From Rhizophagus irregularis (Eukaryota > Glomeromycota > Glomeromycetes > Glomerales > Glomeraceae): a stretch of DNA of 64,000 bases. The translations under genes were made by a program, and so were the position numbers. Shown here piece by piece: positions 31,839 to 55,604 of the stretch. Within the stretch, counting starts at the first letter, position 1, and the number at the start of each line of letters is the position of its first letter. Location of the stretch: positions 2,914,001 to 2,978,000 of the forward strand of contig NC_089441.1 in NCBI RefSeq assembly GCF_026210795.1, read 5' to 3'. The notes under the pieces are model-generated. The model did not search any database and had not been told where the DNA came from. It saw only the letters and a list, made by a program, of their open reading frames with translations.

Positions 31839-32792
31839 ATGAAAAATAGTTTTGGTATAATATTATATACGAGCATAATAATATTTCTTATGCTTTTGAC
31901 CGTTGTTACTGTTGGTACTTCTGCGCTCGATATTATTATTCAAGCTGTAGCGGCAGATCCTACAAATAAAACGTTTGTCATAATTGCAGGAGGAAGTTAC
32001 TTTTTAACGGTAAAGTTTTATTTAACAAGACTTATTTTTTAAAGTTATTAATCAAAGCGTACTTTTTGAAATATATTTGATAGGGTATTGCTGCTTTTAT
32101 TTTGGGTCTTGGCCGCTTATTTAATGTAAAAAGAGCTTTAAATGATATACCAAAGTCTCACATCCCAAAAGACTCACCAAAGGTATAAGATGTTTAAATA
32201 ATAAAGCTTCATTAAGAATAAGATTTTAACTAAATATTAATTCCATTCTAGTCTGTGGATAATCTTATTGTTTCAGAATTAATACGCGTTTCTAGGATTG
32301 ATGTAAAACCGAGACCTGAGGACGGATGCCAACCAGGGTGGGGAATACCAGGTATTATCTTATTTTGGGAATTCTAAGATATCTGAGATATATATTATAT
32401 ATTGCGTGAATTTTTATTTCTGTTCAGGTTCTCCTTATGATAATATACATTTTAGATCTTCAATCATTGAAACATTCTCGGTATTAGGTAAGCGATTTCA
32501 CTAAGCTAATACATAAATTTGTTATTATTACTAAATTTATCAATAAATTATTAAAGAGAAACAAGTTGTAAAAAATTCGTCCTTCTTGACACGTCAGCCG
32601 TCGATGTCCGTTCAACGATATATTGATTTTTTGGTAGAACATGGAATCATTGATCGCGAATTGGGAAATGCTTACGTTGAAGGTTATGAGCGAGCACGTT
32701 TCAGTGATGAAGAAGTACCCGAAGAACAATACATCAAATTTATGAAACTTGTTATACAGTTGTTACGCCCATTGGGTTTCGATGGAAATTAA
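31839..32792 (+). CDS. DLT1: Dlt1-like protein (defect at low temperature 1), 221 aa
   Basis: Five exons: 31839-32009, 32084-32182, 32252-32351, 32428-32487, 32557-32792. Two membrane helices are visible at residues about 6-27 (GIILYTSIIIFLMLLTVVTV) and 44-68, followed by a cytosolic domain. That domain has SELIRVSRIDVKPRPED, GWGIPGSPYDNIHFRSSIIE, and a C-terminal helix pair (YIDFLVEHGIIDRELGNAYV and QYIKFMKLVIQLL). This arrangement matches fungal Dlt1, needed in yeast for growth at low temperature and high pressure; molecular function unknown. The name rests on motif memory, so the identity is likely rather than certain. Confidence 0.78.
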
Positions 32793-32928: not shown

Positions 32929-33238
32929 TGACCTGAACGGAAAGCTTGTGTTAAGGGAAAACATACGGACAACGGATTTATTCCGCTGTCACTTTTTACC
33001 CTTGGGAAGGTCTGAGAAAAACTATAAAAGTCTCTAGCTGAGACACTCATGAGAGTGAGTGCGAACAACCAGAAACGGTACCCTCCTTGGTTTGTAAGTG
33101 TGAAGTCTTTATGACTGATTATTTTCTTACCAATGGAGTGTTGAAACGCGGTTCGCTGGTGGAAGTTCTATGAAGTGCAATACACAAGACATTACAATGT
33201 GATGTAACTCAATTCAGACTACTCTTTTGTTCGGGTCA
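32929..33238 (+). ncRNA. nuclear RNase P RNA, copy 1 (about 310 nt)
   Basis: RNA subunit of the ribozyme that cuts the 5' leader from pre-tRNAs. It contains CCCTTGGGAAGGTCTGAGA at 32998-33016 and CAATTCAGACTACTC at 33210-33224, which are word-for-word the conserved blocks CR-I and CR-V of human RPPH1 as I remember it. AGAAACGG near 33072 and TATGAAGTGCAATACAC near 33169 fit CR-II/III and CR-IV. The two ends pair (TGACCTGAACGGAAAG with CTTTTGTTCGGGTCA). Internal hairpins include CGGA-TTTAT-TCCG near 32969 and GTCTC-TAGCT-GAGAC near 33031. A T8 run follows six bases after the 3' end, as expected for RNA polymerase III. The 3' end of DLT1 is 137 bp upstream. Confidence 0.93.
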
Positions 33239-33243
33239 CATGA

Positions 33244-33251
33244 TTTTTTTT
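33244..33251 (+). terminator. RNA polymerase III terminator of RNase P RNA copy 1
   Basis: Run of eight T directly downstream of the paired 3' end of RNase P RNA copy 1. Confidence 0.75.
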
Positions 33252-33632
33252 ATTTACATTTTTGAGCATTTGATAGATTACACGATTCTTTTAGATATAT
33301 TAGATTCTAAATTCAAAAGACTTTATATTTATATATCTTTTTTTTCCTTTTTCCTTTTTACCCATAACCTTTCTATTAAGTTTGACCCATGGTAAAATTT
33401 TTTTATATTTTATTTTTTTTGATTTGATTTGACATGAGTGGAAAGATTTTATCAAGCATACGTTTCATTCGTAGCCCTTGAGATTTATTACGGTTTCATC
33501 AATATCTTTTTACTAAACAGATCTTGGCGAATTACGTAATTTTCCAGATATGTTGAATTCTATACAATTATTAATCACATTTTTTAATCAAGATCCTAAT
33601 CCTTTCTTTATGACAGCAAATTTAATTTAATT
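33252..33632. other. spacer between the two RNase P RNA genes
   Basis: 381 bp, AT-rich. No coding frame. It should hold the promoter of copy 2, but no A box/B box pair or clear TATA box was recognised. Confidence 0.4.
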
Positions 33633-33957
33633 TGACCTGAACGGAAAGCTTGTGTTAGGGGTAAACATACGGACAATGAAATATATTTCATTAGTCCTTT
33701 TAAATAACCCTTGGGAAGGTCTGAGAAAAACTAAAACTAATCAAGTCTCTAACTGGGACATTCATGAGAGTGAGTAATGAATAACCAGAAATGATATCCT
33801 CTTTGATTCAAAATATGAAGTTTTAAAAACTGATTTTAATTGGATCAATTGAGTATTTAAACATGATTCATTAGTGGAAGTTCTATGAAGCGCAATACAC
33901 AAGACATCACAATATTCGTGATATAACTCAATTCAGACTACTCTTCCGTTCGGGTCA
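33633..33957 (+). ncRNA. nuclear RNase P RNA, copy 2 (about 325 nt)
   Basis: Diverged direct repeat of copy 1, about 700 bp downstream. CR-I (TTGGGAAGGTCTGAGA at 33710-33725) and CR-V (CAATTCAGACTACTC at 33929-33943) are identical to copy 1, and the closing helix is kept (TGACCTGAACGGAAAG with CTTCCGTTCGGGTCA). Stems differ in sequence but still pair: the hairpin after ACGGACAA becomes ATGAAAT-AT-ATTTCAT, and the distal arm changes from CTCCTTGGT/ACCAATGGAG to CTCTTTGAT/ATCAATTGAG. Compensatory change argues that both copies have been under selection as RNA. No run of four or more T follows the 3' end within about 100 bp, so the terminator is missing or unusual. Confidence 0.88.
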
Positions 33958-34804
33958 TATAACCATATATATTTAATGCGGGATTGTTATCAGATAATTA
34001 CGATAAGACTCGTCAGGCGACCAGTAATAAAATTAAGGCTTTGTAAATGTTCCACGTCCTCCGAATGCTTTATGATTTATAGAAGAGAGATGAAAGCAAG
34101 GCAAGGATTGAGCTTTGTAAAGAACGGAAGTCGATATCTAGAAAGAAATCGATAAAAGCATCTCAGATTTCGATCGATCGACACCTTAATAGTGATATGC
34201 AATTGAAATATAATCATTAATTCTCATTAATAGTTTCCTCCGAAATAATTCAATCATTATGCTACGGACAATAATCCATGATCTTTGAGGCAATTCTTCC
34301 TCAAATTTCAGAAAAAAAAAAATTTTTTTTATAATGCGTTGAAATAGAATATATTACATTATTTTTAATTTATGAAACGAGTATTGTATATATTGTAAAA
34401 TTTAAACAATAGTAAATTTATTATATAATACGTAATAGAAAAAAAAAGTTTATTATTACATCATTATTTTAAAAAATTTTATTATGTAAATAATATTTTC
34501 CTTTTGAATTACAATATTAAATTGGCATAATAATATAATAAATAGAATGAAATAAAAAAATCAAATCACTATTTTAAAAAATTTTATTATAAATTATATA
34601 AGTATTTATGTTTGTATTGAAAAAAAAATATATTTTTTTTTCCCCAATTGACCTGTAATAAAAAAAAAATAAATAAATTGTAATGTAAATATAATAATTA
34701 ATATACTTCTACAAAAAAAAAAAAATACAGTGTATAAATATTTCTTTAAAAATTGTATAAAAGTAATAATAAAGAATAAAAATATATTATTTATTTTAAC
34801 TATT
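33958..34804. other. spacer, AT-rich, with an unexplained less AT-rich block
   Basis: Positions 33980-34200 are noticeably less AT-rich than the rest and include self-complementary GATCGATCGA near 34172-34181. It could hold a further small RNA, but I recognise no family. 34310-34804 is poly-A/T rich 3' flank of the septin gene. Confidence 0.35.
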
Positions 34805-36941
34805 TTAATTATTTTCTTGAGCTTGTGCCAATCTTGCCTCCAAATTTCTTAATGCCTCCTCTTTAGCCAAAAGTTCTTGTCTCTTTTCAGTAATTTCACG
34901 TTGAACTTTCAATTCAATTTCTCTCAACTAAGAAAATATTATAGAAAATAAATTAATTCATGTTATAAATAAACAAATTTACTACAACAAAAGTAATAAT
35001 TCAAAGTGTTTACCTTCTCTTCTTCACGTTTCAATTGTTCTTCCTTCAATCGTACACTTTGAGAAGCAAGATCTTCTGGCAAGATAGTAGAGTCCCTGCA
35101 AGTACAAATAAATAATAATATTAGATATATTCAATAAATAATATATTTCATACTTATGAAGATACTTACTCAACAGGGTTATCGGCACTTCTACTAAGTT
35201 TCTCAGTACGATAATTTTCGTACAAGAAATCGTGAGTAATTTCTTTCAAGTCTTGTAAATGAGAGCTAAAAACAATTTAAATAAGGTTTAAAATCACGCT
35301 ATATTGGTACAAGGCTAACATTAATAAAAAAAAAAGTGATTTTTTACCTTAATAGAGCTGATCTTAATCTTGCAAAATCCGAATGTTGCGGATTATCAAC
35401 TATCAATATAAATAAGTATATTATTAAATAGGAGATGAAAAGGTAAAAAAAGTTAATAATAATATAAAATAAAGTTACCTTCGACAACTCCCCATGGATA
35501 TTGACGTCCACGTACAGCTCTTCCATTTACCATAATTTCTTCTTCACTACCAATAATGGCAAAAGGTAAAAGTGCCTAAATAAATATAAAAATCATGGTA
35601 AATAAATAAACTTGTCAAATAACCAAAAAAAAAAACTGATTATACATACTCGCAATTCACTATTTTCTTCAACTGTCTCTTCATCATCCTCTTCTATATC
35701 GAATGGAAAATTGTAAATTGGGATATTATAATGATCAATGTCTTCCATGATCTATAAAAGTTGAATAAAGTATTAATATAATACAAAAAATAAAAGACTA
35801 TCTCAAATTAAAATCATTACATACCCTCTTTTTGAATTCAGTCAATTCAGTTGGTGTGCAGGTATCAGCTTTTCCAATAACGGGAATTACATTGACGCGT
35901 GGACTAAGACGCTTCATTAATTCAATGTCAATCTCACGAAGACTAAAAGTTATCAAAAATAAAATAAATAAAATATTAAAATTACACAACATATACTTTT
36001 TTTGAAATTATTAATAATATACGTACGAATGGCCTGTTGGGGTAATGAAGTAGAGAAGAGCGTGAACCCTATTGTCTCTGAATCTTGGGTTACGTTTAAT
36101 CCGTGATTCTTCGGCCAAGATATCATCATATTGTCTTTCAAGATATCCCATAATTTCTTGGAAACTTATTAAAAAAAAAAGATTAATTAATTATCATTAA
36201 TTACGTGACGTGATCTATAATAATAGAAAGTTTTTTTACCAAAATTCATTATCAATATTATCTCCAAATCCTGGAGTATCTACAATTGTTAAGGCAATTC
36301 TGACACCATCTTCTTCCAATTCTATATACATATATATATATATAAAATTAAAATATATATACAATAACCAAAATTTTTAATATTACATAATAAATAATTA
36401 CTTACCAACGGTGACAGGTTTAATACGGATGCCTTCCTCTACTTGTGCTTCATCAGGTTTATCGCATAATTTTTTGGATAAAACCTCACTTCCACAAAGC
36501 GTGTTGACAAAAGTAGTACGACCAGTACCTGACGCGCCTATATTTAAAAGATTTTAATTAAAGGTTAAAAATTAAAATAAAATACATTTTTTTTATTACT
36601 CTAGCTAAAAATAATGACTTGTTTTTTTAAAAAAAAGTCAAGAAAATTATGTCCAAGATTTCGTTTCAAGTATAAAGTACAAAGAGATTGTCATCTGTTA
36701 TGAGTTACGGTTCTTTTAAAGGTCAAAACCCAAGTATGCCTTAAAAACTTTTAGAAAGGATAAATAACTTACCGACAACCATAAGAGTGAATTGAAATCC
36801 CTTTTTAACATTTTTTCTACGACCACCCAATCTCTATAAAAAGAAAGAGAAAAAAAAAAATCAATTATTAAACGAATTTCTAAATAAAATGATAATTTTA
36901 ATATTGAAAACAACAGTTTACGGATTACTCACATGTGCCAT
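34805..36941 (-). CDS. CDC11: septin, Cdc11/AspA group, 363 aa
   Basis: GTP-binding filament protein of the septin ring, acting at septa, hyphal tips and branch points. Twelve exons: 36933-36941, 36773-36833, 36406-36537, 36240-36321, 36027-36164, 35825-35942, 35650-35751, 35479-35575, 35348-35399, 35170-35265, 35014-35095, 34805-34927. The P-loop is GASGTGRTT at residues 24-32, with Arg in place of the usual Lys, as in Cdc11-type septins. Next come VDTPGFGD, the septin block [28 protein letters not shown] and [13 protein letters not shown]. The C-terminus is a coiled coil beginning [20 protein letters not shown]. The N-terminus is very short. All splice phases agree and the length is typical. 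Confidence 0.96.
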
Positions 36942-40590: not shown

Positions 40591-42505
40591 TTAACGAGAT
40601 ACATCAGAGTTTGAAGGAGAAAGAGGTGGAAGAGTAACGTTCATGTAAGATTTTTGGCCCATACCAGCGTTAACAGGTGGAGAAGGTAACCCAGTGTAAG
40701 ATTTTTGCCCATTATAAAGAGAATTGTCGGGAGATGATCCAAAATTCATTGAAGGTAAAGCACCATTATCAATGTTACGAGCTGCAGCATTCGAAGCCAT
40801 AGCTTGATCCAAACCAACTAAGATGGCAGTTGTTCTATTGAGTAACATACTCAAATGTGATACTTCACGTTGTAATTCTTGTCTATGTGCTTGCAAAACT
40901 TGTTGAGTAATATTTGGATCAGTAACTGCAGCACTAGATAAAGGTGCAGTTTGTGGATGATTATTCAATGGAAGTGGCAGACCGAGATGAGATGAAGTAG
41001 TATTACCAACTGAAGGAGGAATAGAACTGATCGGTGGTAATTGTGGGGGAACAGTTGTTGGAGAGCTAGGGTTCAATAAAGCGGAAATGGAACTTGAAGA
41101 TTGACTTGGAGAAGTAGAACCATCATTATGGAAAACGGAAGGAAGAGGAACAGATGGAGTTCCCATAAGACGACCACCATTATAAGAACCAGTGTTATTT
41201 TGATGAATATGAACTTGTGGTAAATTAGAATTCAAAGAAGGTTCGACAGGAGTTAAACTGCGTCTGCGATCATCATCATAACTATTATTGGAATTCCACA
41301 TTCCTTCAACGTGATGAAAAGAGTTGCGTTTTGAGGAAATATAATCCTCAATAGGAGGGACTTGTCTACCATTTCCACAGCGACGTTTAGAATTAGCAGT
41401 AGAAATAATTCTACCATCATCATCCGAATCAGATTTTCTCTTTCTGCAAGTATTAATTTCTTCGACCGAACAAATATCATCATCAGATGAAATATATTCA
41501 CCGCGTTCAGAACCAGAGGTTGAAGCGGGAGTAGGAGGATGATTTACTCGGCCTTTTCTTGATTGATGTTCATTATCAGATCCACCGGACTGATTATGAG
41601 ATGGTGACGGAGAAGTTGCCAAGGCAACACGTTTACGGCGCTTGATTACAGATCTTTTCATTGTTACAGGACGATGTACGTTATGTAACTTAAAGTAAAG
41701 ACCTAAAAGAAAAAAAAAGACAGAGAAAGATAAATATCATATTTATATATATATAATATAACTTATAATAAAGTTTAAGTATTGATTTTTGATATTTACC
41801 ACAAGCATTACAGATTGTGTTACCAGCTTCATCTCGACGCCACAAAGGGGTAGTATTTGTTCCGCAATTCGCACAAAGCAAGGCTTGACGATTAACTTGA
41901 TGTTGGTTGTAAGCCGGACAACCATCACATGAACTGGATCCGCCTGTACCATCGCAATGACCATCACCTGGACAAGTACCACTGTTATTATTTTCGGGAG
42001 TCTCTGGAACAACAGGAGGAGCTTTCTTAATTGCATTGCGTTTCAACCATGGCGGACGAACTGTGTTTCGAGCCTTGAGATAAAGTCCTAAAAAATAAGG
42101 AAAAATTATAATTTAGTATAACTTGTATATAAAAGAACAAAAAAATCAAGAAAAAAAAATTTAATATTTATCCTCACCACAAGCGTTACAAATCGTTTCT
42201 CCACTTGGAGCTCTTCTCCACAATGGTGTCGTGGTAGTTCCGCAGTTTGCACAAACAGTAGCGGACACACCATGACCTTCCGTTTTACAAGAACGAGATT
42301 GAATGGAACCTGAAGAACCTTTACGGTTGAGCAAGTGTATGGGCTGTTGAATCATTTGCTGTTGCTGCTGATGAGATTGATGATGATGAGTGTGATGATG
42401 ACGAAATAATTGTTGATTACGCATAAGATTATCTGAAGTCTTTTGAGTATTTGGTGGCATATTTGCAGCTGTAATATGAAGGTTTGAAGTTGACTTAACC
42501 TCCAT
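40591..42505 (-). CDS. GATA-type transcription factor of the siderophore/iron repressor family (SreA/Fep1/Urbs1-like), 575 aa
   Basis: Three exons: 42178-42505, 41800-42087, 40591-41702. Two C-x2-C-x17-C-x2-C GATA fingers lie at residues 85-109 and 181-205, both with the invariant TPLWRR and ICNACG. Between them is a cysteine-rich block with Cys148, 154, 163 and 166 ([20 protein letters not shown]), spacing C-x5-C-x8-C-x2-C. That block is the mark of fungal iron-sensing repressors such as SREA, Fep1 and Urbs1, which shut down siderophore and iron-uptake genes when iron is plentiful. Both introns cut at the same place of each finger (just after NAC). The C-terminal half is Ser/Pro-rich with a predicted coiled coil ([16 protein letters not shown]). 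The ATG at 42505 is the first in frame. Confidence 0.95.
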
Positions 42506-43589
42506 TAACAAGTTCAAAGGTTTTTTTTTGGAAGGAACTTTTTTTTTAAAAAAAAAGTTGTTGGTATGTCTTTCTTTTTTAGTTAGTTGCTTAGTTAATT
42601 AATAATTATTTCTCACGTCCTTTTTCTTAAAAAAAACTGCGAAAACTTTTTTAAATGTTGGTTGAGTTGATTTGTAGTTGTTTTGTTGCGCGAACCAAAA
42701 AAAGCAGAATGTAGTATACTTCAAAAGAAGTATAAAGGAAATTATTTGCAGGGTGTAACTTGGAAAGTTACGGTTAAGATTTTTTCTTTCTCTGACTTTC
42801 TCCAGAAAAAGGATTTAAATAAAGATGGAAGTTGGACTTTCGATGTGGTATAAAGCGAGAGTACGGTCAGTAGTTGCTGGTCTAGAATACTTTGTAGCAG
42901 TCCACTTATGCATTGGACGAAAAAAAAGGATAGTACCGCTAACTAATTAGCGAAAAAGACCTTGTTTTTTTTAATAAAAACTTTAAAAAAACCTCAATAC
43001 AATAAAAAATATAAATTAATTAATTAAAAATAAAATAAAAGAAAATAATATTTTTTTATTTTTTTCTTTTCTTATCTACTAGAAAGATTATTGAAAGGTG
43101 TGTTTTTTAAATGCAAACGCAGTCAGTTTAAACTAACAAAAAAGCATGAATAATTTTCTTTGGTAAAAAAAAAAATTTTTAAGTTCCAAAGATGTAAAGT
43201 TCACGGAGCTTTTATATATTTTGATAGGAAAGAAAAAAAAAAAAAAAAAGGCGTTATATGATGAATGTTGTAATAGATGTTGTAGATAAAGATAATAAAA
43301 TAATATTTATATTACATTACTTTAAAAACTGATAAAAGAACCAAGGTTTGATTGTATGATTGTATAAATAAAATTTTTTTTTAAAATAAATAAAAGATGA
43401 TGATGAATTTGATGATAAACCAAGATTACAGTAAAATATGGCTAACTCCTTATTTCACATTACTTAACTTGCATAGATAAGAAATTTTAAGTATTATAAC
43501 ACAAAAGATAAGTAAATTTTTTTTTTGGATCAATCAAAAAAAAATGAGTTATACAAATGTTTATATATAGTATATCAAAAAAAAAAAAA

Positions 43590-53532: not shown

Positions 53533-55604
53533 ATCCTACAGCCAAATAGGATCATGCTTTTTTTATCATGCTGATATTTTTTTATTAAGCTATAAATAAA
53601 CTATGATAGTATACTAATTATTATTGATATTTTTTCAAATACTAAATACCATGTACTAAATATCATACTTAATATCATACTAAATATCATAAATATCATG
53701 TACTAAATATCATGTACTAAATATTATACTGCAAATATAGATACTATTTTAATTTATAATAAATTTGCTATGACAAATTAACCTTTCTTTTAAGCTTGAA
53801 AATTAAATCACAATTAAATAACTCTTTAAATTAATCAATATTCATTAAAATTTCTAATTGTTGATTTATGTCAGTTAAATTTAATGGCTTTTTTAGAGAA
53901 TTTTGTTGATTTTCGTAAAATACTAAAAAAATAAATTAGACAAATTAATAAGTTACAAAATAAAACATATTAATAAATAAAGAATTACCTTCTTTTGCAG
54001 TTTTAATATTATTGTTTTCTTTTCCAATTACTTGTTCATTATATGAAACTTAACCATTTAATATATCTGGTACTTTCGCCTTATCTAATAAATAAAAATC
54101 AGATATTTAATTATATATTTAGTTAAAATATTAAGTAATTATGATAATTGAATAAATTCTATATACCTAAAGTTGGTTTTCCATGAATTTTATCCATAAA
54201 TATTCCAATAATCTCGTTTTTTTTATCATCAGGAGATAAAGTGTATGATAATAATCCAGCATCAGAGCAGTGACAAGAAAGTAATTTTATTTCTTCTTTA
54301 GGAACGCCCATTTTTTCACAATTTTAGATAAGTGCACGTCACCCAGAATGGTTAGTGATTTTCCTACCACTAAAGTTAATGCCAGTAATTTTGCAAATTT
54401 CATTTAAAAATGAATTTAATCTTCTGAATCCTACGTGTTTTAGTTTATATCAAATTCCCATTTTCAAAGCTAAAATAATGAAGTGTATTAATTTTTATTA
54501 ATAAATATTTATAAATATTATTATTAAAATATATTACCAAATTCTTCTTCAACTTCTTGAAGGTAGAAATCAGGATCTGTATCATAGGGACATGATGATA
54601 AATATTTATCAAGAAATGGAGTAACTTCTGGATGATTTGCTAAAACCAATTTATCTGCCTTTCCTCGATTTTCAGTAAGACCACATTGGTTGTTTTTGGA
54701 ACAATAAATAAAAACATTGTATCCACCATCATTACATTTAACAAAATCAGTTCCATTAAGTAATGCATGTTCTCCTCCACGAAACCCAAGATATATTGCA
54801 TTGATAAAGAACACTCTTCTCAATAATCTTTCAGGTGTGGTACCATCTAATAATCTATGATTTAATATTTGGGTAATTTCATTAGCTTTTAGCGAATCTG
54901 TTCCTTTAGTTTCACCTTTCCTATTTTTAGATAAAAATCTAATTTTTCCATTAACAACTTCTTTTATAGCTTTAAAACAAGAATCATTATATAAATCAAT
55001 ATTTTTAATTCTTGATTTTTCTTGAAAAAAATGATTAACAGCTGCAAGAGAAACTCTAATAGAATTAACAGAATAGTCAGCACCATTTTTCTTCTTCATA
55101 TTAGCAAAAAAAGAGCATAATTGTTCAATTAAATCTTGTTCAGATTCCACTTCCTGAATCTTTCCTATATATAACTGTTCATCTCGAAACTTCTCTAGTA
55201 AGCCTATCCATATATCTGTTGCCTTAACTGTATTTTTTACTTTTGAAAATTCACAATAAAAGTCAACCTTGTCTTTTACTGGAGTAGTGGTCTCTTCTAA
55301 TTTTTCCTAAAAAAAGACAATACAAAATGTAATTATAAAGAAAGAAAAATAAAGCAATAATATTAATAAATGAATAATACCTTATTTTTTGAACCTAATC
55401 GTAGCATTTTATTTGAATATAAGTGAAAGAAATAAATGAAGAAAAAGAGAGGAAGTAGTTTAAAAAAGGTTAAAAAGACGCATTGTATTAAACTGGAAAT
55501 AGTTTAATATCGTATTTATAAGCAGAAATAGTTTAAAAAAGGCTAAAAGGATGCGTTAAACCAAAAATAGTTTAATATAGCATGATCATCAGTGGCTGCA
55601 GGAT
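53533..55604. mobile_element. Crypton-like tyrosine recombinase transposon with short inverted ends, about 2.07 kb, broken
   Basis: Contains a minus-strand tyrosine recombinase gene (listed separately). The left end begins ATCCTACAGCCA, five variable bases, then GATCATGCT (53533-53558). The right end read inward is ATCCTGCAGCCA, five different bases, then GATCATGCT (55604-55579). Subterminal repeats are present: TACTAAATATCATG on the left (53640-53730) and AATAGTTTAA on the right (55497-55576). It interrupts the tandem array. Classic Cryptons lack inverted ends, so the arrangement is unusual. The left boundary and any target duplication are not certain. Confidence 0.7.
53831..55407 (-). pseudogene. 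DUF3504/Crypton-type tyrosine recombinase, broken
   Basis: Exons by splice signals: 55381-55407 (MLRLGSKNK), 54538-55306, one beginning at 54469, and shorter ones ending at 53831. The large exon is intact and shows the catalytic-Arg region NAIYLGFRGGEHALLNGTDF. The next exon carries the rest of the catalytic set (NHSG..., SCHCSDAGLLSY) but has three in-frame stops, and a fourth lies in the following exon. All four stops could come from C-to-T change (TGA from CGA, TAA from CAA). These recombinases cut and join DNA through a Tyr nucleophile. The element is a plain DNA transposon, now inactive by itself. Confidence 0.8.

Follow-up and report, generated by a model that had tools for sequence, protein, structure and literature searches.

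RNase P is the enzyme that trims tRNAs, and its RNA is an essential ribozyme that is usually encoded by a single nuclear gene. In the stretch of Rhizophagus irregularis DNA analysed here (64 kb in all, hereafter the window), one intergenic region was predicted from its letters alone to hold two such genes, with stems that differ in sequence while still pairing. The locus therefore raises the question of whether one fungal nucleus has long maintained two functional RNase P RNAs, or whether the second copy is a fresh duplicate, a pseudogene or an artefact of the assembly.

Two nuclear RNase P RNA genes in tandem

Covariance model searching bears out the original prediction of two genes: the RNaseP_nuc search of the window gave two full-length matches, and two complete nuclear RNase P RNA genes lie in tandem on the + strand within 32929-33957. 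Copy 1 matches RF00009 at 32934-33233 with 127.5 bits (cmscan, E 2.6e-36), and copy 2 matches at 33638-33952 with 99.6 bits (E 2.2e-27), in each case over model positions 1-301. Both exceed the gathering score of RF00009 (RNaseP_nuc), which is 28 bits, and copy 2 scores 28 bits below copy 1. No third RNase P copy was found in the 64 kb at E <= 1, RNase P making up two of the five Rfam matches listed. With the bounds of each copy taken as the first to the last base of the closing helix P1, the two genes and their conserved regions (CR) are as follows.

32929-33238, + strand: RNase P RNA gene copy 1, from P1 to P1; RF00009 full length; folding z -4.5
33633-33957, + strand: RNase P RNA gene copy 2, from P1 to P1; RF00009 full length; folding z -4.7
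33004-33017, + strand: CR-I of copy 1, GGGAAGGTCTGAGA; position counted by eye, Rfam match
33713-33726, + strand: CR-I of copy 2, GGGAAGGTCTGAGA; position counted by eye, Rfam match
33210-33224, + strand: CR-V of copy 1, CAATTCAGACTACTC; position counted by eye, Rfam match
33929-33943, + strand: CR-V of copy 2, CAATTCAGACTACTC; position counted by eye, Rfam match
33856-33861, + strand: CR-III of copy 2, TTTAAA; copy 1 has TTGAAA at 33141-33146
33889-33897, + strand: CR-IV of copy 2, AGC; copy 1 has AGT at 33174-33176

The copies had been said to carry the same CR-I, CR-V and closing helix, and they do: P1 is paired over 14 bp in each, and CR-I and CR-V, which together form a P4 of 6 bp, are identical between them. 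CR-II, ACCAGAAA, is likewise common to both, and CR-II and CR-III sit between P10 and P12. Copy 2 departs from copy 1 at two conserved places. In CR-III, TTG becomes TTT at 33858, which takes copy 2 off one more upper-case Rfam consensus position than copy 1, and in CR-IV, AGT becomes AGC at 33891, off an upper-case consensus position with which copy 1 agrees. The outer part of P1 (32929-32942 with 33229-33238 in copy 1; 33633-33646 with 33948-33957 in copy 2) is identical in sequence between the copies, whereas elsewhere stems have changed in paired fashion; P1 may thus be bound or read for its sequence.

Other members of the wider RNA family were considered. RNase MRP RNA lacks the specificity module of CR-II and CR-III; it is ruled out here by the presence of both blocks in both copies and by a best match to RNaseP_nuc. 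A bacterial-type or mitochondrial rnpB is ruled out as well, since RNaseP_nuc is the best match in its clan for both copies (the Rfam clan comparison yielded one further same-clan match, which scored below RNaseP_nuc). The pair thus shares with the known nuclear RNase P RNAs (RF00009; H1/RPPH1, RPR1) the same main helices, CR-I to CR-V and a full-length match. It differs from them in that two copies, tandem and diverged, share an intergenic region, and in the CR-III and CR-IV departures and the missing nearby T-run of copy 2.

The gene before the pair, on the + strand, belongs to the NICE-3 family (Pfam PF07406, E 4.7e-9, with exons joined by eye) and has its stop near 32792; after the pair, a - strand reading frame ends at 34805. 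Between and after the copies no other structured RNA was found, the lowest folding z for 120 bases being -2.1 (33600-33719, which overlaps copy 2) with no C box, and by eye we saw no convincing reading frame for a coding exon there. The window has a GC content of 27.8%, and its genes seem, by eye, to be rich in introns. Elsewhere in the window, an EF-2 exon compared with yeast eEF2 reaches 1033.8 bits, with a few chains scoring higher (up to 1074) and the next EF-2 block at 926-946; taken with the composition and the introns, this makes a fungal host likely. On the - strand, 54524-55306 is an open frame of 260 residues with a weak match to a QRICH1 domain (23.5 bits, cut-off 30.8) and a sequence suggestive of a Crypton-like tyrosine recombinase, and 41690-42598 holds, by eye, two GATA-type zinc-finger stretches in neighbouring open frames that are perhaps exons of one regulator.

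Age of the duplication and pair-preserving change in the stems

Over 309 aligned bases the copies are identical at 255 (82.5%), with small indels; by BLAST, with gaps counted, identity is 78.9% over 331 columns. Beyond the RNAs the likeness soon ends. The 40 bases upstream show 16 ungapped agreements where random placements give 15.1, the downstream flanks agree at 11 of 25 bases, and ungapped repeats run past P1 for about 12 bases upstream and 18 downstream, at lower likeness. Similarity that fades near the ends of the RNA fits an old duplication after which nothing but the RNA was preserved, and is at odds with an assembly duplicate. A fresh duplicate, which had been argued against from the outset, is rejected on the 82.5% identity and on upstream flanks at chance similarity. 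The same two observations bear on an assembly or haplotype artefact, named beforehand as something that could overturn the pair: in a survey of RNase P RNA predictions at least 16 of 36 multiple predictions were ascribed to assembly errors, the extra copies there being highly similar (PMC2996960), whereas the divergence and unlike flanks seen here are unlike collapsed or duplicated reads and make such an artefact extremely unlikely.

The statement that nuclear RNase P RNA usually comes from one gene holds with exceptions. A single copy per genome is what PMC4133162 expects, and the same source describes apparently two identical copies in Rhizopus oryzae, ascribed to whole-genome duplication, as well as exceptional sequence variation with kept structure in the RNase P RNA of Lichtheimia. 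Rhizopus oryzae thus resembles the present case in having two copies in a fungal genome, while the copies here are tandem and 82.5% identical (PMC4133162). Some insects and crustaceans also have multiple copies, in tandem in Tribolium (PMC4287351); those copies lie within Pol II recipient genes, whereas the present pair lies between two reading frames, with a run of eight T (T8) after copy 1. Bcheck reported 20 metazoan genomes with duplications and gave predictions in 51 of 70 fungal genomes, fungal duplicates going unmentioned in the available part of that account (PMC2996960).

The central claim of the original prediction was that several stems differ and still pair. We tested pairing on four structures, namely that of Rfam, a set of hand-drawn helices, and the minimum-energy folds of copy 1 and of copy 2, against a null in which the same substitutions were permuted over paired sites (for the Rfam structure 20,000 permutations, with a floor of P 5e-5). 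On the Rfam structure (55 pairs), standard pairs number 51 in copy 1 and 52 in copy 2: 37 pairs are unchanged, 7 are kept through a single change and 5 through a double change, 3 are gained, 2 are lost and 1 is unpaired in both. Under the null, 44 pairs and 1.6-1.9 doubles would be expected (P 5e-5 for pairs, 0.004-0.010 for doubles), on an alignment that was fitted to the model and hence leans to it. In the hand-drawn set, whose helices were chosen with both sequences in view, 56 of 73 pairs are unchanged, 7 are kept by double and 7 by single changes, and 3 are lost; the 7 doubles compare with about 2 expected (P 5e-5 for pairs, 2e-4 to 5e-4 for doubles). All three lost pairs in this set are lost in copy 2, a bias that is absent on the Rfam structure. 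The minimum-energy fold of copy 1 has 92 of its 101 pairs kept in copy 2, 10 of them through double changes (P 5e-5 and 1e-4), and that of copy 2, with 92 pairs in all, has 82 of 91 alignable pairs kept, 6 of them double (P 0.002-0.003). That the stems differ while still pairing is therefore confirmed as real and beyond chance. Decay of CpG was considered as a cause of the paired changes and rejected: the CpG observed/expected ratio of the window is 1.11, and keeping CpG context fixed in the permutations left the outcome unchanged. The stems concerned are these.

33061-33066, + strand: 5' arm of P10 in copy 1, GCGAAC, with GTTCGC at 33151-33156
33777-33782 with 33866-33871, + strand: P10 in copy 2, ATGAAT/ATTCAT
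32973-32985, + strand: distal part of P3 in copy 1, CGGA/TCCG; copy 2 has TGAA/TTCA at 33677-33690; two double compensatory changes
33083-33138, + strand: P12 in copy 1, with 33799-33853 in copy 2; two double compensatory changes kept and one pair lost

P10 is the clearest, with three double compensatory changes in six pairs.

Folding stability tells the same way. Against 100 dinucleotide shuffles each, the folding z is -4.5 for copy 1 and -4.7 for copy 2. When drift was simulated from copy 1 with the observed substitutions placed randomly, the mean energy was -61.8 as compared with -84.2 for copy 2, and none of 400 runs reached the folding energy of copy 2; the count was again 0 of 400 with identical runs of at least 12 columns barred from change. 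Reverse drift, starting from copy 2, gave 4 of 400, and 1 of 400 in the barred version.

Constraint also differs by region. Over 261 model positions with letters in both copies, upper-case consensus positions show 10 differences in 113 and the others 38 in 148 (Fisher P 6e-4); 4 of those 10 fall in P7, whose register in the Rfam alignment is uncertain. By domain, 18 of 170 aligned bases differ in the catalytic part, as compared with 36 of 139 in the specificity domain, which spans 33021-33160 of copy 1 (P 5e-4). Copy 1 agrees with the upper-case consensus at 89 of 113 positions and copy 2 at 86 of 113, figures too close to mark copy 2 clearly as the one in decay.

A pseudogene dating back to the divergence is rejected on the kept pairs, the conserved blocks, the folding z, the permutations and the drift simulations. 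To this extent the original argument against a pseudogene stands; a recent silencing of copy 2 fits the data still. As only two sequences are compared, the pairing test covers the whole path joining them, and late silencing of one copy would leave the same result. On this comparison, a neutral branch of a length comparable to the path between the copies appears unlikely, and the paired changes indicate that, for most of the time since the copies separated, folding has constrained both.

Transcription signals and the state of copy 2

A Pol III terminator after a nuclear RNase P RNA gene is typical, though not universal. The two copies differ in what follows them.

33244-33251, + strand: T8 run, a putative Pol III-type terminator, five bases past P1 of copy 1
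33958-34322 (365 bases), + strand: stretch 3' of copy 2 without a run of four T; the first run is a T8 at 34323

Of 5816 14-base stretches sampled from the window, 199 contain a run of six or more T. Copy 1 also has an internal T5 at 32993, from which it would follow that five T cannot fully stop Pol III, if Pol III makes copy 1. TTTT is absent from 14 of 1720 sampled 365-base stretches of the window (a sample that includes 33958-34322), and the + strand has seven such places. The idea that T-runs are selected against downstream of copy 2 was considered and rejected: 7-12% of shuffles of the 365-base stretch are without TTTT (P 0.07-0.12), so the absence is not significant for the local composition and we make no claim of selection. 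A shared promoter was not found, the 40 bases upstream of the copies being at chance similarity and a scan with a bacterial consensus giving nothing usable, and ARAGORN found no tRNA genes in the window for a comparison of Pol III promoters. With a T-run missing nearby, copy 2 may be part of a longer precursor, a Pol II product, or not made now. The G+C content per 60 bases is 0.22-0.40 at 33420-34319, around copy 2, and 0.07-0.15 over 34320-34799; such a profile would be expected of a transcribed unit that extends beyond copy 2, or of an inserted piece.

The last of these options for copy 2 could mean that it was long a working gene and was recently silenced, having lost its terminator and perhaps its promoter, with CR-III and CR-IV decaying while the stems are still paired. 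Such a history would account for the lack of TTTT in the 365 bases after copy 2, as against a T8 five bases after copy 1, for upstream flanks that are alike only at chance level, and for the changes at conserved positions of CR-III and CR-IV; it would also resemble the 20 metazoan genomes with duplicates, in each of which a promoter-like upstream region was reported for one copy only (PMC2996960). Those metazoan pseudogenes are likewise second loci without a matching upstream region, but copy 2 here keeps its pairing and folding stability (PMC2996960). The direction of change can be read in the same light or otherwise: of the 54 substitutions, 32 are transitions that put A or T in copy 2 where copy 1 has G or C, in the direction of the AT-rich background, and 7 are transitions the other way. 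Seen from two sequences, this bias may mean a relaxation of constraint in copy 2 or a gain of GC in copy 1.

Several observations nevertheless make recent silencing doubtful. Copy 2 still scores 99.6 bits with z -4.7, and on the Rfam structure its standard pairs match or exceed those of copy 1 (52 as against 51). The missing TTTT is, as given above, not significant for composition. Insect and crustacean RNase P RNA genes are reported without Pol III signals, the Drosophila gene among them works, and the authors warn against dismissing RNase P RNA genes for missing such signals (PMC4287351); copy 2, for which these signals are doubtful, is comparable in this respect. In Lichtheimia a search reportedly found none of the usual Pol III promoter motifs (PMC4133162), so in early-diverging fungi little can be concluded from promoters that do not look alike. 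We regard a recent silencing of copy 2 as rather unlikely.

The explanation that we favour, with moderate confidence, is an old local duplication of a nuclear RNase P RNA gene that gave rise to a tandem pair of paralogues, each still yielding, or yielding until very recently, a folded catalytic RNA. That both copies still work is more likely than not. Weighing against this explanation are the lower model score of copy 2, its missing T-run, the unlike upstream flanks, its departures in CR-III and CR-IV, the three hand-drawn pairs lost in it and the bias in the transitions. As the comparison of the copies shows, the specificity domain has drifted largely by changes that preserve pairing, and the catalytic domain differs less. 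Both RNAs would bind one common set of Pop/Rpp proteins and cut the 5' leaders off pre-tRNAs. Copy 1 would be a Pol III gene ending at its T8, and copy 2 would be trimmed either from a longer precursor with its end close to the T8 at 34323 or from a Pol II transcript. The pair would most likely act as a redundant set that shares dosage, with little specialisation. Of the two long-maintained functional forms first proposed, what is upheld is the long constraint on pairing; that both are transcribed, or that they differ in function, would go beyond the pairing test, which speaks only for the path joining the copies, and copy 2 is without a T-run.

Possible specialisation, a possible mitochondrial role and the meaning of the pair

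A further reading of the pair is that of two specialised RNAs, in which copy 2 differs in the parts that read the substrate and serves only some substrates, stages or compartments. The concentration of differences in the specificity domain is consistent with this, as are the one CR-III and the one CR-IV base change of copy 2, which fall in substrate-contacting regions: stacking on the tRNA elbow is described for CR-II and CR-III, and contact with the 5' leader for CR-IV (PMC6565675, PMC8509007). Nevertheless, greater change in the specificity domain may be an ordinary pattern of the family, and two base changes are few, and we consider specialisation improbable.

Another possibility concerns the mitochondrion. 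The gene rnpB is missing from a listing of the mitochondrial DNA of two Glomus species and Gigaspora rosea, and also of Allomyces (Table 1 of PMC3630166), and protein-only RNase P is reported to be absent from fungi (PMC4919922); taken together, these raise the question of where the mitochondria of these fungi obtain their RNase P. A second nuclear RNA, changed at regions that contact tRNA, could conceivably be imported to serve mitochondria, although we think this very improbable.

The pair has a partial likeness in the same species. The heterogeneous rDNA of Rhizophagus irregularis also consists of diverged copies of a structural RNA in one genome, though of a different RNA, and its copies are all reported to be transcribed (PMC6123716). 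An unusual setting for an RNase P RNA gene has been reported in Auricularia and Inocybe, where it lies in the rDNA operon (PMC9849065). Compensatory divergence, as described here, is absent from the account of insect and crustacean copies as far as that is available (PMC4287351). A search for relatives by patterns of the conserved blocks, in collections without eukaryotes, gave no stretches in viral contigs and two in genome contigs, neither of which matched RF00009 at gathering score. Diverged nuclear RNase P RNA copies that keep their pairs were not found reported for any fungus in a literature search that covered the minority of subscription papers. As far as these searches reach, what is new here is that a fungus has tandem copies whose divergence has been measured and preserves pairing.

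The sequences of copy 1 and copy 2 are distinct enough for RNA-seq reads to separate. The pair offers a natural test of which bases of an RNase P RNA are free to change, and it bears on whether one nucleus can hold two kinds of RNase P and on whether an RNA enzyme can be subdivided in the way that protein enzymes are.
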